From Nipponacmea schrenckii (taxonomy: Eukaryota > Mollusca > Gastropoda > Lottiidae): a stretch of 64,000 nt of DNA. The position numbers were made by a program, and so were the translations under genes. Below the pieces are notes generated by a model, which worked only from the letters and a program-made list of their open reading frames with translations, was not told the DNA's origin and did not search any database. The stretch is taken from assembly GCA_030562195.1 (NCBI GenBank), contig JAUJPP010000011.1, forward strand, positions 7,006,001-7,070,000. Reading direction: 5' to 3'. Below, in pieces: positions 6,301 through 64,000 of the stretch; positions within the stretch are counted from its first letter, which is position 1; the number at the start of each line of letters is the position of its first letter.

Positions 6301-9300
6301 TTATTTCACCAGAAGACTTACCTTGTTTCAAAACTATCAGAAAGAATTCCTCTATAATCCAGTAAATCAATAAAACTAAGTAATTTTGAAACATTCAATA
6401 TTTACTTAGTTTGAGGACATATTGTGTTATTATAGAGATTTTTGAATTTTATTAAGTCTTGTCACCAGATCCACTTGATGAATATTTACTTGTATTGTCA
6501 AGTTGGAAAATTTAAATTGTATGTCCATTCGAAGAGGTAGTATTTTTCTTAAAGTAAGTACCAAAGCAATCTTTGATATACATAAAGAGAAAGATCACTT
6601 AAGATCTTAAATACATATAAAGACAGAAAAAAAGCTGTTAGGACTAACATTCTTGAAGCTACCATGCTCATTAAGAAGAAGTATATTTAGATAAGGATAT
6701 TTAAAGCTAGCATGAAGATATTTACAAAATTCTCATTTGAATGTCTTCCATTGTTTTGTAATAAGTTCATCAGAAAAATAAATAAAACAGCAATCTTATA
6801 TTTCTGATGTCTAACAATGGGAAGACATAATAGAAATCAACAAGTTATTGATTATCTATTAATTATTCCAAGAAGAAATTCAATTTCAATATTTCATGAT
6901 AGCTTTAAACTATATTCAATCTTACCAACAGGTTTGGGGGTAGATTTATCAAGTTTCTCAGAATAAATTCTATTTCCTTTATCTCCTGTGGGGTGATCTT
7001 TTTTAGGGCTGATTTTACCAGGTTTCACTTTAAAGTGGTAGAAATAAAATATTCTAAATTGTTTTAAACATAAACAGAGCAGTTGAGAACTACTTAAATA
7101 AACTATAGTTAAAGATATAGTTTATAATCTTTTTTCTCTGTCCAAAACTATAATAGAGGCCTAATGTGCTACAAAATTGCTGTCTGCTCTGGTGTACTGA
7201 CAAAATTCTACTCATTGCAAAGAGCGTGGTGTTGCCCATCTCCATTAGCCAATTATGTAGGTGCAGAAAACTTCATGCACTTCATGTGATTTTTCAAAAC
7301 TATAATCCCTTTAGCATCTAAACCTTATGAAGATAATAATAGAACGGGCCAATAATATCCTTGTAGGAACCATTATTTATGTTTAGTAATTTTAAATTTG
7401 ATCAGACAAACTACTCTATTATATGACAATATTTAACTCAAATGAATTTGATTGGTTTAATACAAGGAGCTTTTTCTATGTCAGTCCCTTTTGTCATTAT
7501 GTGTATTTGAATCTTGAGTAACATGGAAATGTGAGTCTAAAACAGGAAACAGAAATCAGTAAAAGTGGAAGTGAGGCCGTCAGTGTATTGAATAGACAGC
7601 GATGTATTGATCTTGTCAGTATGATAAAATTTATATTATGAGCCGTAATAAAGTGGAGGTATATAATCACTTTTCACCTCTGACCTGCATTCTTAACAGG
7701 AGAAACTGGGCTGAAAAATCTGAATGCAATCATGCAAAAAAAAAAAAATTTTTTTTTTTCCCATTCTACTGTTAGTACCACAGGGTTTCCAAATGAACAA
7801 TGGAGCTAAAAGCTATAAAATTTATAAAAAGAAAAACTCACCTTTTTTATCTGAAGGTGCCACCAGTTTCTACTGTTGTATTCATCTATTTTCCTGAAGA
7901 AACTTCTACCTGGACTACAAAATAACTTTTTACTTGGTAATAAATAAGTCAATTTTGGTGTATGAAATGTTATCCAAAAATGTTTTTGACTGGTGAGGAC
8001 TGTGTTTCTAAAACATGTGTTGTCAGCCAGCTTGAGTCATACTCTGTAAATAGACAGAGCAGAACCTTTCTATGGCTAAAGAGTATAATATTAGGAACTT
8101 ACCTGTTACACCATTAAAATAGATTGTGTATTGGAAAGTGATGTATCAGTAGAAGAAGAAGAACTTACCAGATTGTATATTGGAATGTGATGTATCAGGG
8201 AAAGGGGAAAAAGGGAAATTACCAGATTGTATATTGGAATGTGATGTATACAGGAGAAGAAGAAGAACTTACCAGATTGTGTATTGGAATGTGATGTATC
8301 ACAAGAAGAAGAAGAAGAACTTACCAGATTGTGTATTGGAATGTGATGTATCAGGAGAAGAAGAAGAACTTACCAGATTGTATATTGGAATGTGATGTAT
8401 CAGGAGAAGGTGAAGAAGAGGAACTTACCAGATTGTGTATTGGATTATGATGTATCTTTACAAGATGAAGAAGAAGAACTTACCAGATTGTATATTGGAA
8501 TGTGATGTATCAGAGAAGAAGAAGAGGAACTTACCAGATTGTATATTGGAATGTGATGTATCAGGAGAAGATGAAGAAGGAACTTACCAGATTGTGTATT
8601 AGAATGTGATGTATCAGGAGAAGTAAGAAGAGGAACTTACCAGATTTGTATTGGAATGTGATGTATCAGGAGAAGATGAATTACCGATTGTGATTGAATG
8701 TGATGTATCAGAGAAGAAGAAGATGAACTTACCAGATTGTATATTGGAATGTGATGTATCAGGAGAAGATGAAGAAGATGAACTTACCAGATTGTATATT
8801 GGAATGTGATGTATCAGGAGAAGATGAAGAAGAGAACTTACCAGATTGTGTATTGGAATGTGATGTATCAGGAGAAGATGAAGAAGAGGAACTTACCAGA
8901 TTGTGTATTGGAATGTGATGTATCAGGAGAAGATGAAGAAGAGGAACTTACCAGATTGTGTATTGGAATGTGATGTATCAGAGAAGATGAAGAAGAGGAA
9001 CTTACCAGATTGTATATTTGGAATGTGATGTATCAGTAGAAAAAGAAGAACTTACCAGATTGTATATTGGAATGTGATGTATCAGGAGAAGATGAAGAAA
9101 GAACTTACCAGATTGTGTATTGGAATGTGATGTATCAGGAGAAGATGAAGAAGAGGAACTTACCAGATTGTATATTGGAATGTGATGTATCAGGAGAAGA
9201 TGAAGAAGAAGAACTTACCAGATTGTGTATTGGAATGTGATGTATCAGGAGAAGATGAAGAAGATGAAGTTGGGAATTACCAGATCTGTGTATTGGAATG

Positions 9301-12300
9301 TGATGTATCAGTAGTAGAAGAGGAACATTACCAGATTGTGTATTGGAATTGATGTATCAGTAAAGATGAAGAAGAGGTACTTACCAGATTTTGTATTGGA
9401 ATGTGATGTATCAGGAGAAGATGGAGAAGATGAAGAAGAGGAACTTACCAGATTGTATATTGGAATGTGATGTATCAGGAGAAGATGAAGAAGAAGAACT
9501 TACCAGATTGTATATTGGAATGTGATGTATCAGGAGAAGATGAAGAAGAGGAACTTACCAGATTGTATATTGGAATGTGATGTATCAGTAGAAGAAGAGG
9601 AACTTACCAGATTGTGTATTGGAATGTGATGTATCAGGAGAAGATAAAGAAGATGAACTTACCAGATTGTATATTGGAATCTGATGTATCAGGAGAAGAT
9701 GAAGAAAATGAACTTACCAGATTGTGTATTGGAATGTGATATATCAGGAGAAGATGAAGAAGATGGAGGTTGGGAATGAACTGCTGTGGATGTTTCTGGT
9801 TTACTAATGCTTTCCTCTACTACAGCTTTGTCTAGAATAAAATTAATAGAGTTTTTTCAAAGCAGAGACATGAAGAGGGTTTTCTTATCATATTTTCAAA
9901 CTTATTTTTGGTCAAAGGGAATGTTAATTAACACAATAAAAGTTTCAACTGTTTAATCTTCCTCAGCATGCTTTTTTTTTTATAGAATTTTGATTCTTAA
10001 AAGGGATGGGAATATTTTGTTTATTAATTATACATTTGAACGATATTCATAAACAGAGGGCATATATACAAAAACACACAAGAGAATATATTATGGTATA
10101 ACAAACACTTCTTTAATAACATGTGTGAATTGTGTTGAAACATTACATACGTTGTTCCATAATTTATTCCCTTGTGTTTTTTTTATCATATATATACATA
10201 ATATATAGCTTGAAGCAATTGAACTGATTATGACAACAGATCAATACAATCTATCCAATTACCAAGCAAAGTTGCCAACAGCAATGAATGGACCTCATAG
10301 CATACTGGAGCATTCCAAATTCGACTGACAGAACTTACCTTTGGAATGAGCTGAATCTGTTTGATCTAATTTTTCACTGTAAATTCTGTTTCCCTTATCA
10401 CCAGTAGGGAAGCCATGTTCTGTTGTTATTGGTACTGGAGCTGAAATGAAAATATGATTTTATGACATACTGATATTCACAGTTTTAATTATTCCCCCAA
10501 TCTGAAATCCATGAGTTGTCTTCTCTTGTCTTTATTTGTTGTAGACGTCAATCAAAGCTTATAGAAGTTAGCATTGTACAAGCTTCTATTCTATTAGTGG
10601 ATACAGATATACCAACTTCTTATTCAGTAATAATTGCATATATATGAGATTGGAAACACTAGCCGAGTTTTTTTTTTAAATGTGCCATGTCCGTTTTGAT
10701 TTTGGTCGAGGCTATATTTATATGCTATCAACTTAAAAGAAAGGTTACATATTTTTAGAAACAATTTTTCCCAATACATCCAAAATTATCATTTTTTGTA
10801 CCGTGTTTCACTTTAATAGATTAACCTTATAAGGATCGAGGTACATTTTTGTTTTGTACAACAGTAGGCTAAAGAGATATTTACTTCAAATTTGTTACTG
10901 TTTTACTGTTATATAAACACTTATGTAAAAAGATAATTCGAATACTACTTCCCTTTAACTATGATAAGGAAGAAACTAAAATAAGAAATAGGATAGACTG
11001 AGAACATCTTGATTAGATAAATAATTTTTTGGAGATTCAAAGGAGATTTTCTAACCGGTGTATGTGATTGGGAAACACTTGGTTTCTGTTTGCATAGTCT
11101 GGTTTCCAGAGCAACAATATCTTAGTCATGTGACAATAAGGTTAAGTGTTTCTAGGAGTATTGGATCCCCAGATTTCGGAGAAATACAATTAAAGTCAAA
11201 AGTTAGTAAGGGACTTATTGTTGAAGAGTGATTAGAGGATTGATAACTGTTTGAGATTCCGATACATTTACATCAGATTGAAATCCTCTTTTAAATTAAG
11301 TTAAAATTAAAAGTAAATCATATTTGAGATAATATAATATAATATAATATGAGATAGAGATAAATGGCAGATATAATACTTATATTGATAGAAGAGAAGA
11401 AGATTTTTAATCTAAAATAGAATTGTTAATGATATAATGCAACGCGGGTTTGTTAACATGACATCCCTTTCAGAGAGTCCACATAGCTAAATATTTTTAT
11501 TTGCATTAATGTAAAATACTAAAGATAAAAGAATTGTTAATGGTATGTTGTCACTTATCTTCACAATGTTGAACTAAATTATTTCAAACTGTGTCTAAAC
11601 CTTGACTGTAATACACACCTTTCTTGCATCATGGAATGCAGTGATTCGATTGGCTGTATTAGATCAGTTGCTGAAACATCGACAAATTATCTTGATACAA
11701 TAAAGGTCAAGCAAGGTATTAGACTGATAGCTTAACATTGTGATCATGACAAGAAAGGTGGCAGTTGCAGCCAAGGTTAAACCCAGTTACCAATAGCTTT
11801 ACTTGGTTCATCAACAGCAATACACCTAGTACTCTTATGGAGTACTCTTATGGTCTACATGATAATAATACTACCTGACAAAAATCAAAAGAAAGTCGAT
11901 AGAAAAAGAGGACAGAAATTCAATGGAGAAAGATATGTTTATTTAAAGCATTAGTATTTATAGTCTAGTTACTGTCATCTATAAACAGGGCTGTTGATTC
12001 ATCTGTATTTACCAGTCATGTAACATACATATCTGACAGTTTTTTGTTTTCAGCTTTCACAAGTAGATTTAACAACATTATTGACTGTTGTATAACACCT
12101 TAACTTATTTAATGAAGCCACCTTCTAAAGTCAAGTGTGCCAAAAATTGAATGATTAAGATTATAAAAGCTGAAAGCAAGCTGTAAAATGACTACTTTGA
12201 CCAGAAAATATGTGAAACAGCTGCCCTATCTATAAATCCACAGTGTTTTTATCTCTTACCAACAGGTTTGGGGGTAGATTTATCAAGTTTCTCAGAATAA

Positions 12301-21300: not shown

Positions 21301-24300
21301 CAGAAGTGCAGAGAAACTAAATAAGTATAGAGTTCGGGGTAAGAATGCTGTACTTATTTCCCATTAAAATAGTTAATTTGTATATTGACTAGGTATATTA
21401 CTATTACTAGATAGAGACCAAAAGAATATAGAGAGGATATATCAGTATATACAATCACCATTAAACTACAAGCAATAAAACAGGTGTCTCTTACCAACAG
21501 GTTTGGGGGTAGATTTATCAAGTTTTTCAGAATAAATTCTATTTCCTTTATCTCCTGTGGGGTGATCTTTTTTAGGGCTAAATTTTGCTGCTATAAATGT
21601 TGAACGAAATAAATAAACTCTATATTCATTATATATTTACTATTGTACATTCAAATGTCCATATATGAGATCGACTATATATGATATCATATAGCTATAT
21701 ATCCTTTTTATTATAGTGGGCAAAATTCTAGTTTATGGAATAATAATAGTAACAATGAGTTTATTTATTCTGCAATATTTCAACAAGTGTCCTCTGGTCA
21801 GCATCAAGCAGGAGGACTTTGAGGATGGGTTGTAGTTCAGATGTTTAGAGAGTCATTAATTAAACAGTAAAATCCAAACATACTGATTCTTTTCATTGTG
21901 TGTAAAACTAAATATATAGTGAATTTATAATTCTAGTGAAGTTATTACAATTTGAAAACATCAAGCCAATCACACAGAAAATATTACTTTATCCATTTTT
22001 TGTTGAATATATAGAAAGGATGAACACAATTACCAATTTACAGTTATTACAATTCTACTATAAAGACATTTCTAAGTGAGGGGTAAATATCATAAACACA
22101 AGATGGTATTTTGGAATGAGCACACTTTTTTAACAGAACATTTCAACACATTTAAATAATGAAACAATACAGGATTTATAACCTTATTAAAGGTGTGTGC
22201 TTATTCCAATATAATATCATGTATTTGAGATTTATGATAGCTCATCAACCATTCAAATCTATTATATATTTCTTCTGATAACAGAATGTGTAAACTGTGT
22301 TGAAATGTCCAGTTGATTTATAATCTTAATAAAGATGTTTGTTTATTCCATAATATCATGTTGTTTTCCTGATAATATATATTGATAAAGTTGTTCTAAT
22401 CTGGTATATAATACAATAACTTACGTGTAACAGGTGTTTGGTTAGGTGGTGCTGCTGACGTTACAGGTGCTGATTCTACTACTATCACATCATCAGCCAC
22501 CATACTCTCTTCTACTACTGGAATATATAAATTGAAGCTAATTTGTGATCAGGGGAGATAATTGTCAAGGACACATAATAATACAGTGAAATTGCAGCTA
22601 TATTAGCATACTCTTTTTGCGATATCCAACTGTCGAGGTATCTTTACACAGCCTGTAGCACACAAGGCTTGGGTTTATTGTCAACAAGCATAATGATAAA
22701 ATATAATATTAACTTATGACAATAAGTACCTGGAGTTTGTTCAGATTTGACATTTTCTTTGTCATCTTTCTCCTCTGATGTATTTGCAGGTGTTTTTATC
22801 ACAGATTGATTAGTTTGAGCTACTTCTTTCACCACTTCTTCTTTCTGTGGACTTCCAACATCTTCAGTAGAAGCTTCATCATCTTCGTCTTCTTTCTCAG
22901 CTTCTTTTTGTTTTTGTGAGTTCACTAAATCTAAGGTGGTGGACTGAAAAGAAACAGTCAGAAGGCATTAGTTAGTTTCACTACAATTGTACACAAAAAA
23001 AATATAAGCATAGATGAAATAGATGTCACTGAATTACTATATATACCATAGTTGTTCTATTTTTCAATTAGAAGATAAACACTTTCTGTTTTAGATTTAG
23101 AGGGGGTTTATTCGATATTTAACCATGCTTGAATATACCAATAGAGACCTAATGTTCATTAATGATTCAAGCATGGTTAAATATCGAATAAACCCCCTCT
23201 AAATCTAAAACAGAAAGTCGTTTATCGGAATTGTACCACAAATTGTGATGATTTTGGTCCCAGACTCTTTTTTTATGGATAATTTAGACATGGGCTATTC
23301 GGTTTTTATGACGTTAGGTGCAGTATGACGCACATAACAACAAACTGCACGTGCGCTATCGAATGAAAAAGAAGACATCCTTTATATCATTAACATTAAC
23401 AAGATTTGTAACTAGTTGTTGAAATTAATACGCCAAATTGCAAAGACATGATGTCAAATTGCTATTAAACCCCATGTATTTCGACCAATCAGAACTCAGA
23501 ATTTTTGTTATTTGTGGTACAATCATTGTTATTTTGTGCTTAATAAATATTCCTGTATGTAAATTGAAACGTTGCTTAAATTAAAAAGGAGTAGTATATC
23601 TATAATAGTGTCTTGTTTTAGATAATATTTGTTTATATTTGTGTTTTGTGAATTTTAGTTTTAATGTGATGTAAGTTGGTTAATTCCGAGTTTATATAAA
23701 GGTGCTAGGTAAGTTATTAATTGGCAAGTTCTACATTTCCTTCTGTTTCTAGATACCAAAGGAGAAACTTTAAGACGTTACAGACTTTTATTGAGCCAAG
23801 TAAAGATGATAAAACTTCTATACAGAGCTTTATTGAGCCAAGTAAAGATGATAAAACTTCTATACAGACCTTTATTGAGCCAAGTAAAGATGATAAAACT
23901 TCTATACAGACCTTTATTGAGCCAAGTAAAGATGATAAAACTTCTATACAGACCTTTATTGAGCCAAGTAAAGATGATAAAACTTCTATACAGACCTTTA
24001 TTGAGCCAAGTAAAGATGATAAACATTCTATACAGACCTTTATTGAGCCAAGTAAAGATGATAAAACTTCTATACAGACCTTTATTGAGCCAAGTAAAGA
24101 TGATAAACATTCTATACAGACCTTTATTGAGCCAAGTAAAGATGATAAAACTTCTATACAGACCTTTATTGAGCCAAGTAAAGATGATAAACATTCTATC
24201 AGACCTTTATTGAGCCAAGTAAAGATGATAAAACTTCTATACAGACCTTTATTGAGCCAAGTAAAGATGATAAACATTCTATACAGACCTTTATTGAGCC

Positions 24301-27300
24301 AAGTAAAGATGATAAAACTTCTATACAGACCTTTATTGAGCCAAGTAAAGATGATAAACATTCTATACAGACCTTTATTGAGCCAAGTAAAGATGATAAA
24401 ATTCTATACAGACCTTTATTAAGCCAAGTAAAGATGATAAAATTCTATACAGACCTTTATTGAGCCAAGTAAAGATGATAAACATTCTATACAGACCTTT
24501 ATTGAGCCAAGTAAAGATGATAAACATTCTATACAGACCTTTATTAGCCAAGTAAAGATGATAAACATTCTATACAGACCTTTATTGAGCCAAGTAAAGA
24601 TGATAAACATTCTATACAGACCTTTATTGAGCCAAGTAAAGATGATAAACATTCTATACAGACCTTTATTGAGCCAAGTAAAGATGATAAACATTCTATA
24701 CAGACCTTTATTGAGCCAAGTAAAGATGATAAACATTCTATACAGAACTTTATTGAGCCAAGTAAAGATGATAAAATTCTATACAGACCTTTATTGAGCC
24801 AAGTAAAGATGATAGAACTTCTATACAGACCTTTATTGAGCCAAGTAAAGATGATAAAACTTCTATACAGACCTTTATTGAGCCAAGTAAAGATGATAAA
24901 CATTCTATAAGACCTTTATTGAGCCAAGTAAAGATGATAAAACTTCTATACAGACCTTTATTGAGCCAAGTAAAGATGATAAACATTCTATACAGACCTT
25001 TATTGAGCCAAGTAAAAATGATAAACATTCTATACAGACCTTTATTGAGCCAAGTAAAGATGATAAAACTTCTATACAGACCTTTATTGAGCCAAGTAAA
25101 GATGATAAAACTTCTATACAGACCTTTATTGAGCCAAGTAAAGATGATAAAACTTCTATACAGACCTTTATTGAGCCAAGTAAAGATGATAAACATTCTA
25201 TACAGACCTTTATTGAGCCAAGTAAAGATGATAAAACTTCTATACAGACCTTTATTGAGCCAAGTAAAGATGATAAAACTTCTATACAGAGCTTTATTGA
25301 GCCAAATAAAGATGATAAACATTCTATACAGACCTTTATTGAGCCAAGTAAAGATGATAAAACTTCTATACAGACCTTTATTGAGCCAAGTAAAGATGAT
25401 AAAACTTCTATACAGACCTTCATTGAGCCAAGTAAAGATGATAAAACTTCTATACAGACCTTTATTGAGCCAAGTAAAGATGATAAAACTTCTATACAGA
25501 CCTTTATTGAGCCAAGTAGAGATGATAAAACTTCTATACAGACCTTTATTGAGCCAAGTAGAGATGATAAAACTTCTGTTCCTTTATAAGATTCATCAGC
25601 TTCAAATTCTTCTCGTAAATCTTGATAAACATTGTTCATTATCTTCTTCACCTTTAATTTTAAAAACAAAGGGGTTTAAAAGTGATTTTAAAAGTAAACC
25701 CTTCAAAGGGTTTTTACTATTTAAATACTGAAAGGCCAAGTTTTCTAAAAGTTTCAAACCCTACTCAAAAATATTTATTTGTATCCGCTTTTTAAATCCT
25801 TAAGCGGCATTTATGGATTTAAAGAAAATTTGGAAAATTTAAATTTAACCCGGAAACGGTAATTAGGTAAAAACTCTCAAATTTAAGTTTTTTAAACCAC
25901 ACGTTTAAAAAACCAAAATCCCTTACTTTTTGAAAATCTTATCATTTTTCATGCTTCATTCAATAATAACTTTAAAATTTTTGAAAAAATGTGAATATCA
26001 CCTTAATTGAGTTTATTTTATCCCCCATGTCAAATTTGTTGCGTTTTTTAATTTCTCCAGAGTATGTGTTTTTTAAAATATCTTCCGATTAACTAAATTT
26101 CATTAAATATTCAAATAATCTGATACTTGGTAAACTAAAATCTATATCACTTGGAAACAGAAATTATAACTTGATATTCTAAATTGAAGCCACGTCTGAG
26201 CTCTTAATTGTAGTATTTTTCAATGTAAACTGTTTGTTCTAACAATAAATTATTTTTGTGAGATTATTTTAGAAACACGATCTAGAGACACATAAATTTA
26301 AACGACATGAAAAGTATTACCTCCATAACTAAATCACCAGAGGGAGCCACAGTACTTGATACAGTACCACTATTTTTAACTTTATCTGTCAACTCTTCAA
26401 TTTTCTCTTCTAATTCCTCAATTTTATCTGTTTGTGTTTCATTTTCATCTTCTAGTTCCTGTATTTTATCTTCATATTTCTCTTTCATAGCCGTGGCTTG
26501 ACTTCGCAGATTATCATACTGAAAGAGACAACATTAGTAACATGGTTCAAATAATAAATATACAAGGTTCTGAACAGTGTGTGGTGTGAGATTTACACAG
26601 TAGAAAAAAAAAGAAGTGTGTACAGGAGATATAGTTAAGATGGATATGAATTGCTGAGAACACTACTACTACTACAAATGGGTGTAGAGGGTTCTACAAC
26701 TTCTACTACCGGTAGCTAACAGTGTTAGAAATAGTCATCATTCTTTATTATTCCAGTCAGATCAGCTGTAAATAGGTAAGGATAATCCAGGAAAGATCAA
26801 TGCTAATATGTTTGATAGACAGGATCATCCTGTTGTTAATATGAATATCTGAACTTTTCCTTCGTATTTTTAATAAATTTGAGTATATTTAGTAAAAAAC
26901 CTGAACAAGATTTTGTTTTGTCCTCACCTTGTCTTTCCATACTTGTAATTCTTCTATTTCTTCCTCAAGTTCGTTAATTTTCTCTTCGTTAGTATTATTA
27001 CTCACTCTTAAAGTCTGTACCTAGAAATAAATTTAGATCAAGTTTACAGAATTCACATTATATATATAATTTTTGCAGGAATGTGTTTTAAAGTGATATT
27101 AAATACTAGCCAAGCTAATAAAGTAAGAAACAAAACATGAGGTTTAAAATGATGAGGTTAAGAATAAGTTAGATAAAGTAAAGTATGAAAAAGACATTTT
27201 TATAACTGTATTTTGTATTGTTAATAATATTTTGTTGTGTATTGAATGTTTAATTGTCAGATCTCTCTAATGGTAGAAAATGCTTGTAAGAAACAGGAAA

Positions 27301-30300
27301 GTATAATAACCTCATACTTGTGATGTTTGTGGAAAGTGTTTTACTAAAAGAGCTGCTGGTTCAGGGGCTTCATTTTAGAAAACCAAGGCTAGATAGTAAT
27401 AAAATTTGATTTTAATATTAGAACCTAATGAAATTAGATATGAACTAACCCTGTGTTCTGACTCTTTAAGTTTCTGTTTTAAATCTTCCAGCTCCTCTTT
27501 AATATCATGTAGAGCTCTGGAATGTTTCTCATGAGCTGTGGCTAGTAGTTTATCACATTTCTTCTGCCATTGTTCTTCTATTTCTAATTCTATTCTAGAC
27601 ATCTATAATATATCAAATAACATCCTACTATTAACTTGGCTAAATATAAACATGTGTGGCCTCTTAGTTCTAAATGGTAGTGCTTTCATCTATATATCAT
27701 TTATCCTTGGTTTACATAAATTCTTAAACATCCTTCAGCTGTCACCTCCTCCTGGGTGATGAATGGAGACAGGAAATGAAGACATCTCGGAATAAATGGA
27801 AAATTAGGAGTTTGAAAAAGCAGAGAGCCAAAAGACATTTCTTGGACTTACTAAAGATGTATTTTTTAGGACAATATATTTATATAATTGAGATAATTAT
27901 TTTATAAAGATTTACTGATAATTATGATCACAGGGGAAAGGGCCCGACTTTCTCACAAGTAAATCTGACACAACTATTAATCTTACCTTATCTGAAGTAG
28001 ACTCATCAGCTGATGTCTTGGCTCTTCGTAGTTTATCATGTAATGTCTGGATTTCTTGCTGAAATTATAATCAAATCTCAGGTTACATCTTCTATGTTAA
28101 ATAAACACTAGGCAAGGCAATACTTACTTTTCTAGACACCTGATACCACTTTTTATTGATTTTATTATAAAATACTTACTCTTCTAGACACCTGATACCT
28201 TATAATAACATACTTCATTAGCTGCTACCTATGTTTCGTCAAAATGATTTTTTAATTTTGGATTCCGAGGTGCGGTTCTGATCGTTAGTATGATTATATT
28301 ATTTATGTGAGAAATTGAATTGTAATATTGTAAATAAGAATTGCTACTGACTGACCTCCATGTTTGTTTTCATTTCTTCCATCTCTTCTTCTAACTTCTT
28401 TCTTTCAGCAGTGGTCTTTCTCCTTCTATCTGCTATACTCTGATAAATATATATACAAATTAAAAACTCACTTTTGCTGTCAATTTTAACTTAATAAATC
28501 TATAACACATAATAAAATTAGAAATGTAAATAGAATATGGTGAGGTTTGTAAAGTTGTTTGAAGAATGTACAGCATAAAATTCTAGGTAATAACATGTTT
28601 CAGGTTCATTTTCTGTAAAAATACTATTGATTTACCATCCAGTTAAATAATGACTGTATCAGAGAAAAAAGAAAGAAACAACTATATTTTAAAAGGATAA
28701 CAACTTAGGTTCACAAGTCCGCCGCGACAGGGATCCTTTTTACCAGCTGGTCCTTGGCTAAACCTCTTGACATTGATCTTTGCCCAATTATCTGTACCCA
28801 TTTACTGCTGGGTGGACTGGAATTGTGAGTCAACATGACTTATTCAAGGTCATCAGACTTTCACACTTCGGTCGAGATTAGAACTCACATCCCAAATTTT
28901 CAATGTATTCAAGTGTCATGATGTAAAGAACCAACGCTCTGACCGCTGTGCTATAGAACCAACGCTCTGACCGCTGTGCTATAGAACCAACGCTCTGACC
29001 GCTGTGCTATAGAACCAACGCTCTGACCGCTGTGCTATAGAACCAACACTCTAACTGACTGTGCTATAGAACCAACACTCTGACCGCTGTGCTATAGAAC
29101 CAACGCTCTGACCCTGTGCTATAGAACAAACTCTAACGACTGTGCTATAGAACCAACACTCTAACCGCTGTGCTATAGAACCAACGCTCTGACCGCTGTG
29201 CTATAGAACCAACGCTCTGACGCTGTGCTATAGAACCAACACTCTAACTGACTGTGCTATAGAACCAACACTCTGACCGCTGTGCTATAGAACCAATGCT
29301 CTGACCGCTGTGCTATAGAACCAACGCTCTGACTGACTGTGCTATAGAACCAACGCTCTGACCGCTGTGCTATAGAACCAACGCTCTGACCGCTGTGCTA
29401 TAGAACCAACGCTCTGACTGCTGTGCTATAGAACCAACGCTCTGACCGCTGTGCTATAGAACCAACGCTCTGACCGCTGTGCTATAGAACCAACGCTCTG
29501 ACCGCTGTGCTATAGAACCAACACGCTTCTGACCGCTGTGCTATAGAACCAACCTCTGACGCTGTGCTATAGAACCAACTGAGCTCTGACCGTTTGGGCT
29601 ATAGAACCAACACTCTGACCGCTGTGCTATAGAACCAACGCTCTGACCGCTGTGCTATAGAACCAACGCTCTGACCGCTGTGCTATAGAACCAACGCTCT
29701 GACCGCTGTGCTATAGAACCAACGCTCTGACCGCTGTGCTATAGAACCAACGCTCTGACCGCTGTGCTATAGAACCAACGCTCTGACCGCTGTGCTATAG
29801 AACCAACGCTCTAACTGACTGTGCTATAGAACCAACGCTCTGACCGCTGTGCTATAGAACCAACGCTCTAACCGCTGTGCTATAGAACCAACGCTCTGAC
29901 CGCTGTGCTATGAACCAACGCTCTGACCGCTGTGCTATAGAACCAACGCTCTAACTGACTGTGCTATAGAACCAACGCTCTGACCGCTGTGCTATAGAAC
30001 CAACGCTCTAACTGACTGTGCTATAGAACCAACGCTCTGACCGCTGTGCTATAGAACCAACGCTCTGACCGCTGTGCTATAGAACCAACGCTCTGACCGC
30101 TGTGCTATAGAACCAACGCTCTGACCGCTGTGCTATAGAACCGTACTTGATGAACAGAATACTTTGTAACCATGAGATAAACCTTGACATATTCTGTCAT
30201 GTTATTATGAGACCCTGTAAAACTTACTCGTTCAAGATTTTCTTTAGAAGATTTTAAATCAGTGTATTCCTCCTGTAACGTATTTAAACTACTCTCTAGG

Positions 30301-39300: not shown

Positions 39301-42300
39301 TGAAGATGTGTAAGATGAAGTTTGTAAAAGCTGGACATTGTGATGATATATAAGATGAAGTTTGTAATAGCTTGACATTGTGAAGATGTATAATATGATG
39401 TTTGTAATAGTTTGACATTATGAAGATATATAAGATGGAGTTTGTAATAGTTTGACATTGTGAAGATATTTATGATGAAGTTTGTAATAGCTTGACTTTT
39501 TTATGATATATAAGATGGAGTTTGTAATAGATTGACATAGTGAAGATGTATAAGTATGAAGTTTGTAATAGCTTGACATTGTGAAGATGTATAAGTATGA
39601 AGTTTGTAATAGCTTGACATTGTGAAGATGTATGAGATGAAGATTGTAATAGCTTGACATTGTGAAGTTGTATAAGATGAAGTTTGTAATAGCTTGACAT
39701 TGTGAAGATATATAAGATGAAGTTTGTAAAAGCTGGACATTGTGATGATATATAAGATGGAGTTTGTAAAAGCTGGACATTGTGATGATATATAAGATGA
39801 AGTTTGTAATAGCTTGACATTGTGAAGATATATAAGATGAAGTTTGTAATAGATTGACATAGTGAAGATGTATAAGATGAAGTTTGTAATAGTTTGACAT
39901 TGTGAAGATGTATAAGATGAAGTTTGTAATAGCTTGACATTGTGAAGATATATAAGATGAAGTTTGTAAAAGTTTGACATTGTGATGATGTATAAGATGA
40001 AGTATGAAATAGCTTGACATTGTGAAGATGTTTAAGATAAAGTTTGTAATAGCTTGACATTGTGAAGATGTTTAAGATAAAGTTTGTAATAGCCTGACAT
40101 TGTGAAGATGTATAAGATGAAGTTAGTAATAACTTGACATTGTGAAGATGTATAAGATGCAGTTTGTAATAACTTGACATTGTGAAGATGAATAAGATGT
40201 ATTTTGTAATAGCTTGATATTGTGAAGATGTATAAGATGAAGTTGATAATAACTTGACATTGTGAAGATGTATAAGATGAGGTTTGTAATAACTTGACAT
40301 TGTGAAGATGTATAAGATGAAGTTTGTAATAGTTTGACATTGTGATGATGTATAAGATGAAGTTTGTAATAACTTGACATTGTGAAGATGTATAAGATGA
40401 AGTTATTAATAACTTGACATTGTGAAGATATATAAGATGAAGTTTGTAAAAGTTTGACATTATGATGATGTATAAGATGAAGTATGTAATAGCTTGACAT
40501 TTTGAGGGTTTATAAGATGAATTGTTTTAATATTTTGATATTGTGAAGATGTATAAGTATGAAGTTGATATTGTGATTGGGTAGTGATTTTAGAAATAAA
40601 ACAGAATGTGCTCTGATAACTTTATTCAAGGCCGTCAGTAAACCATGACTTAAGCAACATCAAAATACACATATTGTCAAACACAGTAATAGTCCCACGG
40701 CAGATCTCACATCAAGGTTTCACATCATAACTGATGATCATAAATTGAAACAGACTAAAGTAACAATGATCTATTTTATGAAAGATGCTGTATAATATTT
40801 CAAAACCTTATAACAAGCGAGAAAACAAACAGAAAACACTGCCCTGCTATAGCAATACCTTTCAATTGGCTCTAGGAAACACTTCTAAGTAGGTTCAGCC
40901 ATTAGTGAATTCCATAAATGAAAAGAAATGAATGGAGTTTTAAAACCTACTCTTCTGCACCTTAATGGACTAATGAAGATGGGAGTGAATTCCATTTTAA
41001 CTGACTGACTTGCTAATTTTTACAATTGGAATTCAAAATTCTAGGAGATATTTTATGAGTGAAAGGTGACTAACTTGGGAGGGGAGGGGGGGGGCAGAAA
41101 GCGAATAGGATCTAATAGAGAACATTAAATATACATGTCATTCTTGGAAAATAAAAACTGCTTTATAAAGTTAATTTAATTGTTGAAGAGACAGTGATAA
41201 GTTTAAACATACCCTAAATGATTTAAATATCTCAGTATTCACTGTAAACCGAGTCTATGTCAATATTATTGTTGTTATTAGCTTAAGATATGTCTGAATT
41301 AACCTCAAACAGGTTTTTTATAGTATTAGTATACCAGTTTACCTACATTCTATCAATAGGTATCATTTCAGCTTCATAAACTATTTCGGTAGTTAGTAAC
41401 TACTCCAAATAGTAGTTTAATATATCAGTTAACAGTGGATTTATCTGATAAATATACAGATCTAGATGTAAACTGCTGAGTTAATAAATGTCAGAAATAG
41501 TATATCCATATATCTAGTGCTTCTTTAACTAAATCTTATTTCTATATTAAACTATATGTCTTATAAAAAGTTAATATTAAACTATATGTCTTATAAAAAG
41601 TCAATATTAAACTATATGTCTTATAAAAAGTTAATATAAAACTATATGTTTCATAAAAAGTAAATATAAAACTATATGTCTTATAAAAAGTTAATATTAA
41701 ACTATATGTCTTATAAAGAGTTAATATTAAACTATATGTCTTATAAAAAGTTAATATTAAACTATATGTCTTATAAAAAGTTAATATTAAACTATATGTC
41801 TTATAAAGAGTTAATATTAAACTATAAGACTTATAAAAAGTTAATATCAAACTATAAGTCTTATAAAAAGTCAATATTAAACTATATGTCTTATAAAAAG
41901 TTAATATTAAAGTATATGTCTTATAAAAAGTTAATATAAAACTATATGTCTTATAAAAAGTCTTATTTAAAAGTTAATATAAAACTATATGTCTTATAAA
42001 AAGTTAATATAAAACTATATGTTTCATAAAAAGTAAATATAAAACTATATGTCTTATAAAAAGTTAATATAAAACTATATGTTTCATAAAAAGTAAATAT
42101 TAAACTATATGTTTATAAAAAGTAAATATAAAACTATATGTCTTATAAAAAGTAAATATCAAACTATATGTTTCATAAAAAGTAAATATTAAACTATATG
42201 TCTTATAAAAAGTTAATATAAACTATATGTCTTAAAAAAAAATATCAAACTATATGTCTTATAAAAAGTTAATATTAAACTATATGTCTTATAAAAAGTT

Positions 42301-45300
42301 AATATCAAACTTTTGTCTTATAAAAAGTTAATATTAACTATATGTCTTATAAAAAGTTAATATAAAACTATATGTCTTATAAAAGTTAATATAAAACTAT
42401 ATGTCATAAAAAGTAAATATTAAACTATATGTCTTATAAAAAGTTAATATTAAACTATATGTCTTATAAAAAGTTAATATAAAACTATATGTCTTATAAA
42501 AAGTTAATATTAAACTATATGTCTTATAAAAAGTTAATATTAAAGTATATGTCTTATAAAAAGTTAATATTAAACTATATGTCTTATAAAAAGTTAATAT
42601 AAAACTATATGTCTTATAAAAAGTAATATTAAACTATATGTCTTATAAAAAGTTAATATAAAGTATATGTCTTATAAAAAGTTAATATAAAACTATATGT
42701 CTTATAAAAAGTTAATATAAAACTATATGTCTTATAAAAAGTTAATATAAAACTATATGTTTCATAAAAAGTAAATATAAAACTATATGTCTTATAAAAA
42801 GTTAATATCAAACTATATGTTTCATAAAAAGTAAATATTAAACTATATGTTTCATAAAAAGTAAATATTAAACTATATGTCTTATAAAAAGTTAATATCA
42901 AACTATATGTTTCATAAAAAGTTAATATAAAACTATATGTCTTATAAAAAGTTAATATAAAACTATATGTCTTATAAAAAGTTAATATCAAACTATATGT
43001 CTTATAAAAAGTTAATATTAAACTATAAGACTTATAAAAAGTTAATATCAAACTATATGTCTTATAAAAAGTTAATATTAAACTATATGTCTTATAAAAA
43101 GTAATATTAAACTATATGTCTTATTAAAAGTTAATATTAAACTATATGTCTTATAAAAAGTTAATATAAAACTATATGTCTTATAAAAAGTTAATATAAA
43201 ACTATATGTCTTATAAAAAGTAAATATAAAACTATATGTCTTATAAAAAGTTAATATCAAACTATATGTTTCATAAAAAGTAAATATTAAACTATATGTT
43301 TCGATAAAAAGTAAATATTAAACTATATGTCTTATAAAAAGTTAATATTAAACTATATGTCTTATAAAAAGTTAATATAAAACTATATGTTTCATAAAAA
43401 GTTAATATAAAACTATATGTCTTATAAAAAGTTAATATAAAACTATATGTCTTAAAAAATTAATATCAAACTATATGTCTTATAAAAAATTAATATTAAA
43501 CTATATGTCTTATTAAATGTTAATATAAAACTATGTCTTATAAAAAGTTAATATTAAACTATAAGACTTATAAAAAGTTTATAAAATCTATATGTTTATA
43601 AAAAGTTTATAAAACTATATCTTACTAAAAAAGTATAAAACATACTAATTAAACTATATGTTTCATAAAAAGTAAATATTAAACTAATGTCTTATTAAAA
43701 GTAAATATAAAACTATATGAGGAATTGGTTCTTACCTTTGATTTTTATGTAATAATTCTGCTATTTTCTCATTCTGACTTTCAATTTTAGCACTTTTATC
43801 AAATAAATCTTTTTTTAGGTGTTCATTTTCCTACAAACAGATCAAAATACTAATCAGATTAGTTGTTCATGTTCCTGTCAACCCAACTGTAATATGGGTA
43901 ATGATTAATAAGATAAGTTTGCTTGTTAATCTTTAGAAAAGAATGGTTCTTTTATTTGGCGAATTGTTGGAAGATTATAAGGACAAAATATTTCACCAGA
44001 CAAAGTATGACAATATTTACTACTGGAATAAGGTAACTATACATCATCTGTAGTTATGTCATGTTCTAATGAATTAACATATTTGGTTTAATAACTAACG
44101 TCAATGGCAATTCCATTTCATCCAAAGCATACTTGATAGGGGACAGGTCAGGAGAAACTACTGGCCGAAGGGTACCAGAATATTTTGCTGAAATCCATCA
44201 CAACACGTGCGACAGGTGGACAAGAATTATCCTTGCTGAAGTGTGATGCGTCATCATCAAGCCTGCATCAATGCCAACGCCTATATACCAATAAGATAAA
44301 CTCCTAAACATACCTGAGCAATTCTTGTTACATTTTGTATCAATATAGTAACTTCCATGTTGGGTGCTGTTATACCTAAAGATGTCGACGTCCCTCCTAC
44401 TGAATGTAGATCATTTAACTATAATAATAATAAACTATTTTTACACATTGACATCTGATCATAGTCTGGTCAAATTCTTAAATATTGGTTAACTTGAAGT
44501 TAAATATAAGAATTGTTGACATAATTAGAATTGAAACAGGTAGAACCTATTATAATAAAAGTACTACCAACATTTGTCTAAAAATACACAAGTACATGTG
44601 TACTTAAATGGACAGATTTATTTTCACATATTAGGGTTTACAGAATTTCAGTAACAGTACATGACTGCAAAAACTAAAGGAAAGGTCACCTCATAAAGGG
44701 TGTGAATAAAATTTCAGTAAGCAGTCAATTGGCCACAAATATTTTAAGTTCCTAAATTGATATTTGCCTAATTAAAGATGTGCCTAATTGACATTGTGCC
44801 AAATATAAAAGAGCATAAAAAGTGTGTGCCCTAATTAAAGGTATGCCTAAATAAAGCTGTGCCTATATGTCCTGCAGCCAAATAAATGTGTGCCTAAAAG
44901 AAGTATGCTCAAAGTACCATATCAAACTGATTTGTGCTCACCTTTTCATAAACCTTATCCACCTTATCTCCTATCTTACTGATGGCCATTCGAACTTCAG
45001 TATTCTGTTGTCTAGTTTCTGTTAATAATACAGGACCAAATACATCAGCTGACTGTTGACTAGAAGGTGGTGTACTGCTAGCACCTGGAATTCACAACAA
45101 AATCTTAAAAAGGTTCAAGACAGGTTAAAAATTACAGATAAAGTTCCCAAAGACGGTTACCAGGTTATCAAGTTAAAACTAAGTCATAGAGTTATAGCAT
45201 TATTTGTTCTTATTACATCTTATACAGTAGTTTGACAAATAATACGGTTGAGTTATCTTTAATTCTATCTCAAATTTTTGTAACTTATATTCTTTAAGAA

Positions 45301-58984: not shown

Positions 58985-61900
58985 AATCAATGATCTAAAG
59001 CTTCAATCTAGTCTTGAGTCTAGACCTCTAGTCAGACATGACTGGTAAAAAACGTCAAAACAAAAATCTAGATCTCTAGTCAGACATGAATAAAAATACA
59101 GTCAATCAACAGCCTAGAGCTCTAGTCAAACATGAATTAAAATACAGTCAATCAACAGCCTAGAGCTCTAGTCAAACATGAATAAAAATACAGTCAATCA
59201 ACAGCCTAGAGCTCTAGTCAAACATGGATAAAAATACAGTCAATCAACAGCCTAGAGCTCTAGTCAGACATGAATTAAAATACAGTCAATCAACAGCCTA
59301 GAGCTCTAGTCAAACATGAATTAAGATACAGTCAATCAACAGCCTAGAGCTCTAGTCAAACATGAATAAAAATACAGTCAATCAACAGCCTAGAGCTCTA
59401 GTCAAACATGGATAAAAAATACAGTCAATCAACAGCCTAGAGCTCTAGTCAGACATGAATTAAAATACAGTCAATCAACAGCCTAGAGCTCTAGTCAAAC
59501 ATGAATTAAGATACAGTCAATCAACAGCCTAGAGCTCTAGTCAAACATGAATTAAAATACAGTCAATCAACAGCCTAGAGCTCTAGTCAGACATGAATTA
59601 AAATACAGTCAATCAACAGCCTAGAGCTCTAGTCAAACATGAATTAAGATACAGTCAATCAACAGCCTAGAGCTCTAGTCAAACATGAATTAAAATACAG
59701 TCAATCAACAGCCTAGAGCTCTAGTCAAACATGAATTAAAATACAGTCAATCAACAGCCTAGAGCTCTAGTCAAACATGAATTAAAATACAGTCAATCAA
59801 CAGCCTAGAGCTCTAGTCAAACATGAATTAAAATACAGTCAATCAACAGCCTAGAGCTCTAGTCAGACATGAATTAAAATACAGTCAATCAACAGCCTAG
59901 AGCTCTAGTCAAACATGAATTAAGATACAGTCAATCAACAGCCTAGAGCTCTAGTCAAACATGAATTAAAATACAGTCAATCAACAGCCTAGAGCTCTAG
60001 TCAAACATGAATTAAAATACAGTCAATCAACAGCCTAGAGCTCTAGTCAAACATGAATTAAAATACAGTCAATCAACAGCCTAGACTCTAGTCAAACATA
60101 TTAAAATACAGTCAATCAACAGCCTAGAGCTCTAGTCAAACATAGAAAATTAAAATACATCAACAACAGCCTAGAGCTCTAGTCAAACATGAATTAAAAT
60201 ACAGTCAACAACAGCCTAGAGCTCTATCAAAATGAAAAAATACAGCAATCAACAGCCTAGAGCTCTAGTCAAACATGAATTAAAATACAGTCATCAAACC
60301 TAGAGCTCTAGTCAAACATGAATTAAAATACAGTCAACAACAGCCTAGAGCTCTAGTCAAACATGAATAAAAATACAGTCAATCAACAGCCTAGAGCTCT
60401 AGTCAAACATGAATTAAAATACAGTCAATCAACAGCCTAGAGCTCTAGTCAAACATGAATTAAAATACAGTCAATCAACAGCCTAGAGCTCTAGTCAGAC
60501 AGAAAAAAACAGTCAATCAACAGCCAGAGCTCTAGTCAACATGAATTAAAAACAGTCAATCAACAGCCAGAGCTCTAGTCAAACATGAATTAAAAACATC
60601 AATCAACAGCCTAGAGCTCTAGTCAAACATGAATTAAAAAACACAATCAACAGCCTAGAGCTCTAGTCAGACATGAATTAAAATACATCAATCAACAGCC
60701 TAGAGCTCTAGTCAAACAAATTAAAATACAGTCAATCAAACCTAGAGCTCTAGTCAAACATGAATTAAAATACAGTCAATCAACAGCCTAGGCTCTAGTC
60801 AAACATGAATTAAAATACAGTCAATCAACAGCCTAGAGCTCTAGTAAACATGAATTAAAATACAGTCAATCAACAGCCTAGAGCTCTAGTCAGACATGAT
60901 AAAAATACAGTCAATCAACAGCCTAGAGTTCTAGTCAACATGAATTAAAATACAGTCAATCAACAGCCTAGAGCTCTAGTAACATGAATTAAAATACAGT
61001 CAATCAACAGCCTAGAGCTCTAGCAACATGAATTAAAATACAGTCAATCAACAGCCTAGAGCTCTAGTAAACATGGAAAAAATACAGCATCAACACGCCT
61101 AGAGCTTAGTCAAACATGAATTAAAATACAGTCAATCAACAGCCTAGAGCTTAGTCAGAAGATTAAAATAAAATCAACAACAGTCTAGAGCTTAGTAAAT
61201 GAATTAAAAACAGTCAATCAACAGCCTACTCTAGTCAAACATGGATAAAAATACAGTCAATCAACAGCCTAGAGCTCTAGTAAACATGAATAAAATCAGT
61301 CAATCAACAGCCTAGAGCTCTAGTCAAACATGGATAAAAATACAGTCAATCAACAGCCTAGAGCTCTTATAACATGATAAAATACAGTCAATAACAGCCT
61401 AGAGCTCTAGTCAAACATGAATAAAATACAGTCATCAACAGCCTAGAGCTCTAGTCAAACATGAATTAAAAACAGTCAATCAACAGCCTAGAGCTCTAGT
61501 CAAACATGAATTAAAATACAGTCAATCAACAGCCTAGAGCTCTCAAACATGAATTAAAAACAGCAATCAACAGCTAGAGCTCTGTCAAACATAATTAAAA
61601 TACAGCAAAACAGCCTAGAGCTCTAGTCAAACATGAATAAAATACAGTCAATCAACAGCCTAGAGCTCTAGTCAAACATGAATTAAAATACAGTCAATCA
61701 ACAGCCTAGAGCTCTAGTCAAACATGAATTAAAATACAGTCAATCAACAGCCTAGAGCTCTAGTCAAACATGAATTAAAATACAGTCAATCAACAGCCTA
61801 GAGCTCTAGTCAAATGATAAAAATACAGTCAATCAACAGCCTAGAGCTCTAGTCAACATGAATAAAAATACAGTCAATCAACAGCCTAGAGCTCTAGTCA

Positions 61901-64000
61901 GACATGAATTAAAATACAGTCAATCAACAGCCTAGAGCTCTAGTCAAACATGAATTAAAATACAGTCAACAAAGCCTAGAGCCTATAAAATAAAAATACA
62001 GCAATCCAGCCAGACTATAACATAATAAATAAGTCAATCAAACCTGATATAACATAATAAAATAAGTCAATCAACACCTGATAAAACATAATTAAAATAA
62101 GTCAATCAAACAGATTAAACATAATTAAAATAAGTCAATAAACAGATATACATAATAAAATAAGTCATCAACAGTAATCAGTCAACAGAATTAAATCAGT
62201 AAACAGCTAATCAGTCCATAATAAAATAAGTCAATCAAACAGATTATAAACATAATAAAATAAGTCAATCAACAGTAACTTAGTAACAAATTAAAATCAG
62301 TAACAATAAACTAAGTCTTCAACAGATTAAACATAAATACAGTATAAGCTGATCTAGTCAACATGAATAAAAATACAGATCAACAAGCCTAGAAACATAA
62401 ATAGTCATCAAGTAATAATACAGTAATAACATCAAGCTAGTCATAACATGATAAAATACATCAATCAACAGTCAATAAACAGATTAAAATAATCAATACA
62501 GCTAATCAAAACAGATAAATAAGTCTAGCAAATTATAACAAATTAAATCTAATCAAACTGATTAACAGAATAAATAAGTCTAACAGCAGATTAGTAAACT
62601 GGATTAAACAGATAAAACAGCTAATCAACAGCCTAGAGCTCTAGTCAAACATGAATTAAAATACAGTCAATCAACAGCCTAGAGCTCTAGTCAAACATGG
62701 ATTAAAATACAGTCAATCAACAGCCTAGAGCTCTAGTCAAACATGAATTAAAATACAGTCAATCAACAGCCTAGAGCTCTAGTCAAACATGGATAAAAAT
62801 ACAGTCAATCAACAGCCTAGAGCTCTAGTCAAACATGAATTAAAATACAGTCAATCAACAGCCTAGAGCTCTAGTCAAACATGAATTAAAATACAGTCAA
62901 TCAACAGCCTAGAGCTCTAGTCAAACATGAATTAAAATACAGTCAATCAACAGCCTAGAGCTCTAGTCAAACATGAATTAAAATACAGTCAATCAACAGC
63001 CTAGAGCTCTAGTCAGACATGGAATTAAAAATACAGTCAATCAACAGCCTAGAGCTCTAGTCAAACATGAATTAAAATACAGTCAATCAACAGCCTAGAG
63101 CTCTAGTCAAACATGAATTAAAATACAGTCAATCAACAGTCTAGAGCTCTAGTCAGACATGAATTAAAATACAGTCAATCAACAGCCTAGAGCTCTAGTC
63201 AAACATGAATTAAAATACAGTCAATCAACAGTCTAGAGCTCTAGTCAGACATGAATTAAAATACAGTCAATCAACAGTCTAGAGCTCTAGTTAGACATGA
63301 ATTAAAATACAGTCAATCAACAGCCTAGAGCTCTAGTTAGACATGAATTAAAATACAGTCAATCAACAGCCTAGAGCTCTAGTTAGACATGAATTAAAAT
63401 ACAGTCCATCAACAGCCTAGAGCTCTAGTTAGACATGAATTAAAATACAGTCAATCAACAGCCTAGAGCTCTAGTCAGACATGAATTAAAATACAGTCCA
63501 TCAACAGCCTAGAGCTCTAGTCAGACATGAATTAAAATACAGTCAATCAACAGCCTAGAGCTCTAGTCAGACATGAATTAAAATACAGTCAATCAACAGC
63601 CTAGAGCTCTAGTCAAACATGGATAAAAATACAGTCCATCAACAACAGCCTAGAGCTCTAGTCAAACATGAATTAAAATACAGTCAATCAACAGCCTAGA
63701 GCTCTAGTCAAACATGAATTAAAATACAGTCAATCAACAGCCTAGAGCTCTAGTCAAACATGAATAAAAATACAGTCAATCAACAGCCTAGAGCTCTAGT
63801 CAAACATGGATAAAAATACAGTCAATCAACAGCCTAGAGCTCTAGTCAAACATGGATAAAAATACAGTCAATCAACAGCCTAGAGCTCTAGTCAAACATG
63901 GATAAAAATACAGTCAATCAACAGTCTAGAGCTCTAGTCAAACATGAATAAAAATACAGTCAATCAACAGCCTAGAGCTCTAGTCAAACATGGATAAAAA
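58985..64000. repeat. 46-bp satellite array with a 12-bp palindrome, runs off the window
   Basis: Over 100 units of CAGTCAATCAACAGCCTAGA, GCTCTAGTCAAACATGAATT, AAAATA. Each unit holds the perfect palindrome CTAGAGCTCTAG. Common variants are GGATAAAA for GAATTAAAA, TCAGACATG for TCAAACATG and TTAGACATG near 63290-63450. Units at 59100-60050 and 62630-63999 are clean. Between about 60050 and 62625 they carry frequent one- to several-base losses, extreme at 61975-62620. The array continues beyond the window edge. Confidence 0.95.

Follow-up and report, generated by a model that had tools for sequence, protein, structure and literature searches.

A minisatellite spanning an exon/intron boundary of a molluscan FKBP15 gene probably carries its extra splice donors as intronic passengers

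The FKBP15 gene of Nipponacmea schrenckii contains a 42-bp minisatellite (23779..25577, minus strand) that starts inside the 3' end of an exon and repeats the exon/intron boundary, with a phase-0 splice donor in nearly every unit. We consider it most probable (about 0.77) that this array is a minisatellite of the type known from amphioxus as mirages, and that its extra donors are intronic passengers. The frame of the exon stays open through 16 of the donor slots, and a second boundary of the same gene has been amplified out of frame.

The FKBP15 gene and its amplified boundary

The window, i.e. the whole 64,000-nt stretch of contig JAUJPP010000011.1 that was analysed, has a G+C content of 30.5% and is minisatellite-dense according to Tandem Repeats Finder, with 17 merged arrays, taken from the longer rows of that program, that together cover 17,935 bases. 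Two large arrays (59020-61982 and 62623-64000) have a common 46-bp unit, and the second reaches the end of the window. A tRNA scan of the window returned none. The FKBP15 gene lies on the minus strand; as placed by translation and homology, it begins with an ATG at 56931 and reaches about 3109. Because a generic exon finder returned two rows only, the exons were mapped through coding composition and homology; translation gave 23 exons, and four others (at about 55543, 54831, 54441, and 44391, minus strand) came from tblastn with relatives. The map is partial, since further tail exons were seen and only some of them were mapped. Among the matches listed, molluscan FKBP15-like proteins are the best. 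Residues 430-941 of the query match the FKBP15-like protein of Gigantopelta aegis with 50% identity over 89% (E 2.6e-129), and residues 1-280 match with 58% over 72%, so that homology extends across the coiled-coil part and the C-terminal block. Single-exon Pfam matches to PF23649 scored 24.6 and 17 bits, under the curated cut-off of 27. In the tail of the gene, an 18-residue motif is coded at about eleven places (about 21567 to 3145, minus strand); a VVEESxGK exon lies near several of its copies, and tandem copies of the motif occur in a Pomacea protein (P0016).

The amplified exon (25544..25651, minus strand; 108 nt, phase 0/0) is the 26th in the present map and had been counted as exon 27 in the first-pass annotation. 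It was placed by translation, and FKBP15 sequences from molluscs, lancelets, and birds are homologous to it; the exon has remained conserved and intact at the edge of the array, as the original exon does in mirages. The preceding exon (26518-26321) also ends in phase 0. The authentic donor, slot 0, is AAG/GTCTGT (25538..25543, minus strand) and scores 8.65 in a matrix derived from 20 further donors of this gene, which themselves score 6.02-11.52; it is thus mid-range for this gene. The acceptor of the exon (AAATTAAAG/GTG) looks weak by eye. If slot 0 is used, the intron occupies 22944..25543 (minus strand), and the next exon (22730..22943, minus strand), supported by homology, starts in phase 0 after TTTTCAG.

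Tandem Repeats Finder counted 43.0 copies with 96% matches in the 42-bp array. In the one haplotype at hand, we located 43 donor slots, spanning 25543 to 23785, 37 of which are intact AAG/GTCTGT, so that splice signals are kept in most units, as in mirages. The altered slots comprise two AAG/CTCTGT and one each of AAG/TTCTGT, AAG/GTCTTA, AAG/GTCTGA, and AAA/GTCTGT, and the remaining GT sites within the array have matrix scores below zero. When the exon is compared with the unit leftward from the donor, 34 nt agree without a mismatch, followed by agreement at two of four positions and no sustained match beyond; the start of the intron and the distal flank of the array have only the bases GTCTGTA in common. 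The unit therefore spans the exon/intron boundary, with an exon part of about 34-36 nt and an intron part of 6-8 nt. These matches bear out the earlier proposal that the array arose by amplification of this boundary, although the composition then given for the unit, 10 codons plus a 12-nt donor segment (30+12), has to be revised accordingly. Two unit types, A and B, alternate across ten distal units (23954-24372, minus strand), which suggests an 84-bp higher-order unit in that region.

An error of assembly, either in the length of the array or in the array itself, is a very improbable explanation. A run of 43 near-identical units is hard to assemble, and one lancelet mirage seemed to have been mis-assembled in a draft genome, according to a supplementary legend (PMC3087553). 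However, the units differ from each other by scattered private changes and fall into the types A and B, many other arrays with varied units are present in the same window, and the flanks join cleanly to exon and intron.

The anatomy points to the following course of events. A short tandem duplication would have copied the last 34-36 nt of the FKBP15 exon and the adjoining 6-8 nt at the start of the intron, and we infer that slippage or unequal exchange then raised the array to 42 extra copies. Because the break lay just beyond the donor hexamer, the donor of the exon at 25543 would have been left intact, and every later copy would be intronic. The later donors would then be passengers that are rarely used, if at all.

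Reading frame and donor use across the array

The first-pass annotation had described a frame that stays open for about 17 units, with the same phase-0 donor in each. The frame is indeed open, but over 16 donor slots: the open reading frame that enters from the exon extends over 24908..25651 (minus strand), and its first stop codon starts at 24907. Within slots 0-15, GT is present in 15 of 16 and the intact AAG/GTCTGT in 14 of 16, so that the statement on identical donors holds for most units and fails for two of them. Slot 6, which lies inside the in-frame part, is dead (CTCTGT; 25286..25291, minus strand), and slot 15, at 24913, has the altered donor GTCTTA in a 41-nt unit (24873..24913, minus strand) that is the first to break the frame. 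Units of 41 nt make up 6 of the 42 in the array, and each of them breaks the frame.

From these donors, it had been proposed that choosing donor n inserts n copies of a 14-residue unit into the protein and that the length of the array sets a family of protein lengths. We regard such a working ladder as unlikely. It is favoured by the 16 slots in frame with 14 intact and identical donors, and a coiled coil could keep its register, since 14 residues correspond to two heptads. If at least some in-phase donors further downstream were used, FKBP15 would vary in length in steps of 14 residues (two heptads), differing among individuals with the length of the array. The arithmetic of phase behind the proposal was right, but the ladder itself finds hardly any support here. 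Among the 148 relatives fetched, which are the listed part of two larger searches and include near-duplicates, 129 cross the junction at the end of this exon without an insertion, 3 share the K residue there but then run on into a different sequence, and 16 have no coverage of it; the expected insert was present in none of the 148 (16 not covering). A protein search with the open reading frame of the ladder gave no match at E 0.001 among 7998 candidates scored. In addition, use of slot 15 would produce an exon of 738 nt.

Splicing from the first donor would give the normal protein, because these 129 of 148 relatives cross the junction without an insertion; judged from the sequence, most transcripts should thus be spliced from 25543 to 22943. 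Nothing in the donor itself would favour the first slot, as the same 9-nt sequence is found in all 37 intact slots. A further point contrary to the passenger reading is that a weak-looking acceptor combined with a mid-range donor could allow some slack in donor choice.

The open frame is not special in itself, because the consensus 42-bp unit is open in four of its six frames. Nor is the phase of the array surprising, since 7 of the 17 merged arrays (with one period chosen per array) have a unit length that is a multiple of three, in addition to the four open frames. Under the passenger reading, the open frame would follow from a unit length of 42, a multiple of three, and from the chance lack of a stop codon in that frame. 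We consider that the in-phase ladder is best read as a one-in-a-few coincidence.

Differences among the units were compared between the proximal and distal parts of the array. Five substitutions lie in the 15 proximal units and five in the 27 distal ones, so that the in-frame units are no better conserved than the rest. One-base deletions are absent from the first 15 units and all six are located in the 27 distal ones, a distribution with a chance of 0.056. This is the remaining point in favour of a working ladder; it is faintly what selection for the frame would give, and we do not take it as evidence. The codon differences within the first 15 units speak against a ladder: eight are nonsynonymous and one is synonymous, compared with 94 versus 32 when every possible single change to the consensus is counted. 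Four of the eight represent one variant common to several units, which is a variant spread by copying. The in-frame units show no sign of protein-level constraint.

A second boundary array and the placement of arrays

The same gene contains a second boundary array, which provides a further argument against a working ladder. The donor CTG/GTAAGT of another exon (9718..9831, minus strand), identified from the exon map and by comparison with the array, has been amplified downstream into an array of units of about 55 bp (8121..9763, minus strand) with 30 donor slots located as GGTA. CTG/GTAAGT is found in 26 of these 30 in-array slots, so that splice signals are again kept in most units. One further GGTA lies at 8102 in the distal flank. 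Comparison of the start of the intron with this flank gave GTAAGTTC, 8 nt, when the GT at 8102 is taken as the old start of the intron, although some 17 other bases separate this GT from the last unit.

This array is out of frame, as the exon's own frame meets a stop codon 26 nt after the first donor. Its downstream donors could therefore not give a protein ladder. The offsets of its 30 slots, the authentic one included, leave remainders of 0, 1, and 2 on division by three in 8, 12, and 10 cases, respectively; all three phases are thus represented, and an array of this build does not need units that keep the phase. As the two arrays are otherwise alike, the open frame of the 42-bp array is not part of the phenomenon.

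In both boundary arrays, the duplicated stretch reaches only slightly beyond the donor hexamer. These two cases suggest that only breaks that spare the authentic donor survive, whereas a break within the hexamer would have left a damaged donor and been lost.

Of the 14 arrays that lie within the gene, two have a 5' end that falls in the final 60 nt of an exon. When arrays were placed at random, P was 0.085 for at least two such cases, and we do not claim an enrichment of arrays at donors; the calculation used an incomplete and rough list of 33 mapped donors, in which two entries (27451 and 15804) are displaced by one base and a repeated exon is placed at its other copy (19479 instead of near 16.26 kb). 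Two boundary arrays could thus arise by chance in a minisatellite-dense gene, with selection retaining only those that leave the exon undamaged. We weighed the array at 54849-55152 as a possible third case, on the acceptor side, but discarded it, since it stops 17 nt short of an exon and contains no exon sequence. It consists of 10.9 copies of a 28-bp unit with 100% identity, and an acceptor-like AAACAG site is present in its units. The arrays at 41544-43719 and 28927-30142 start 17 and 86 nt downstream of the mapped exon ends 43736 and 30228, respectively (ends excluded).

The extra donors might also act without being used themselves, as decoys or U1 platforms that alter the efficiency or kinetics of splicing of the intron. 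The presence of 37 intact donors within 1.8 kb, together with the 30 GGTA donor slots of the second array, would suit such a role. The work on lancelets, however, suggests that published mirages do not interfere with regular splicing (PMC3087553, PMC3902484), and we regard this role as quite improbable. We retain the reading of the extra donors as passengers in mirage-type arrays.

Comparison with known boundary repeats

The arrangement had been thought to be undescribed. The same kind of structure is in fact known in amphioxus (PMC3087553, PMC3902484). Tandem duplications of exon-intron boundaries, termed mirages, are reported there in globin genes and had been reported earlier for Adh3 (PMC3087553). 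They are unstable in length and have splice signals in many units; the Adh3 data and RT-PCR of globin transcripts suggested no interference with regular splicing, and it was noted that the splice signals in mirages might be drawn on as cryptic ones, yielding alternative transcripts (PMC3087553). The splice sites of PGBD5 in lancelets are associated with 60-bp and 108-bp arrays; as cited in that study, the Adh and TnC mirages generate no aberrant mRNAs, with the same held for PGBD5 by inference, and an exon predicted inside the 108-bp repeats is described as lacking EST or mRNA support (PMC3902484). By our own arithmetic, both of these lancelet unit lengths are divisible by three.

The FKBP15 arrays resemble the amphioxus mirages of Adh3, BflGb6, BflGb9, TnC, and PGBD5 in that their units span an exon/intron boundary, many of the units have splice signals, the original exon lies at the edge, and the published cases, with unit lengths of 10-160 bp, affect several genes. 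They differ in several respects: the host is a molluscan FKBP15 gene, only 5' boundaries are amplified, whereas both 5' and 3' boundaries are in amphioxus, and an open in-phase frame extends over 16 slots in one array. The arrays described here have 43 and 30 donor slots, compared with the 2 to 7 copies given for BflGb6 and PGBD5; the copy number in FKBP15 exceeds these.

Internal tandem repeats at exon-intron boundaries have also been described in human duplicated genes, where they can generate alternative splicing and create introns (PMC2812944). They resemble the FKBP15 arrays in lying at boundaries, but they are segmental duplications with transcript evidence, whereas the FKBP15 arrays are known from DNA alone. 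Our literature search, judged by titles and the starts of abstracts, returned no molluscan boundary minisatellite or donor ladder among the papers listed. A 2007 paper reportedly deals with alternative splicing arising from tandem arrays, a likeness that rests on its title.

The kind of structure is therefore already known, and the additions made here are the molluscan host, the copy number, and a gene that has been hit twice. Boundary minisatellites, described in lancelets and humans, are thereby extended to a mollusc genome, in which one gene contains two of them. With dozens of identical donors in one and the same local context, the gene offers a natural experiment on the choice that the spliceosome makes between equivalent 5' splice sites, and the in-phase and out-of-phase arrays in the same transcript serve as controls for each other.
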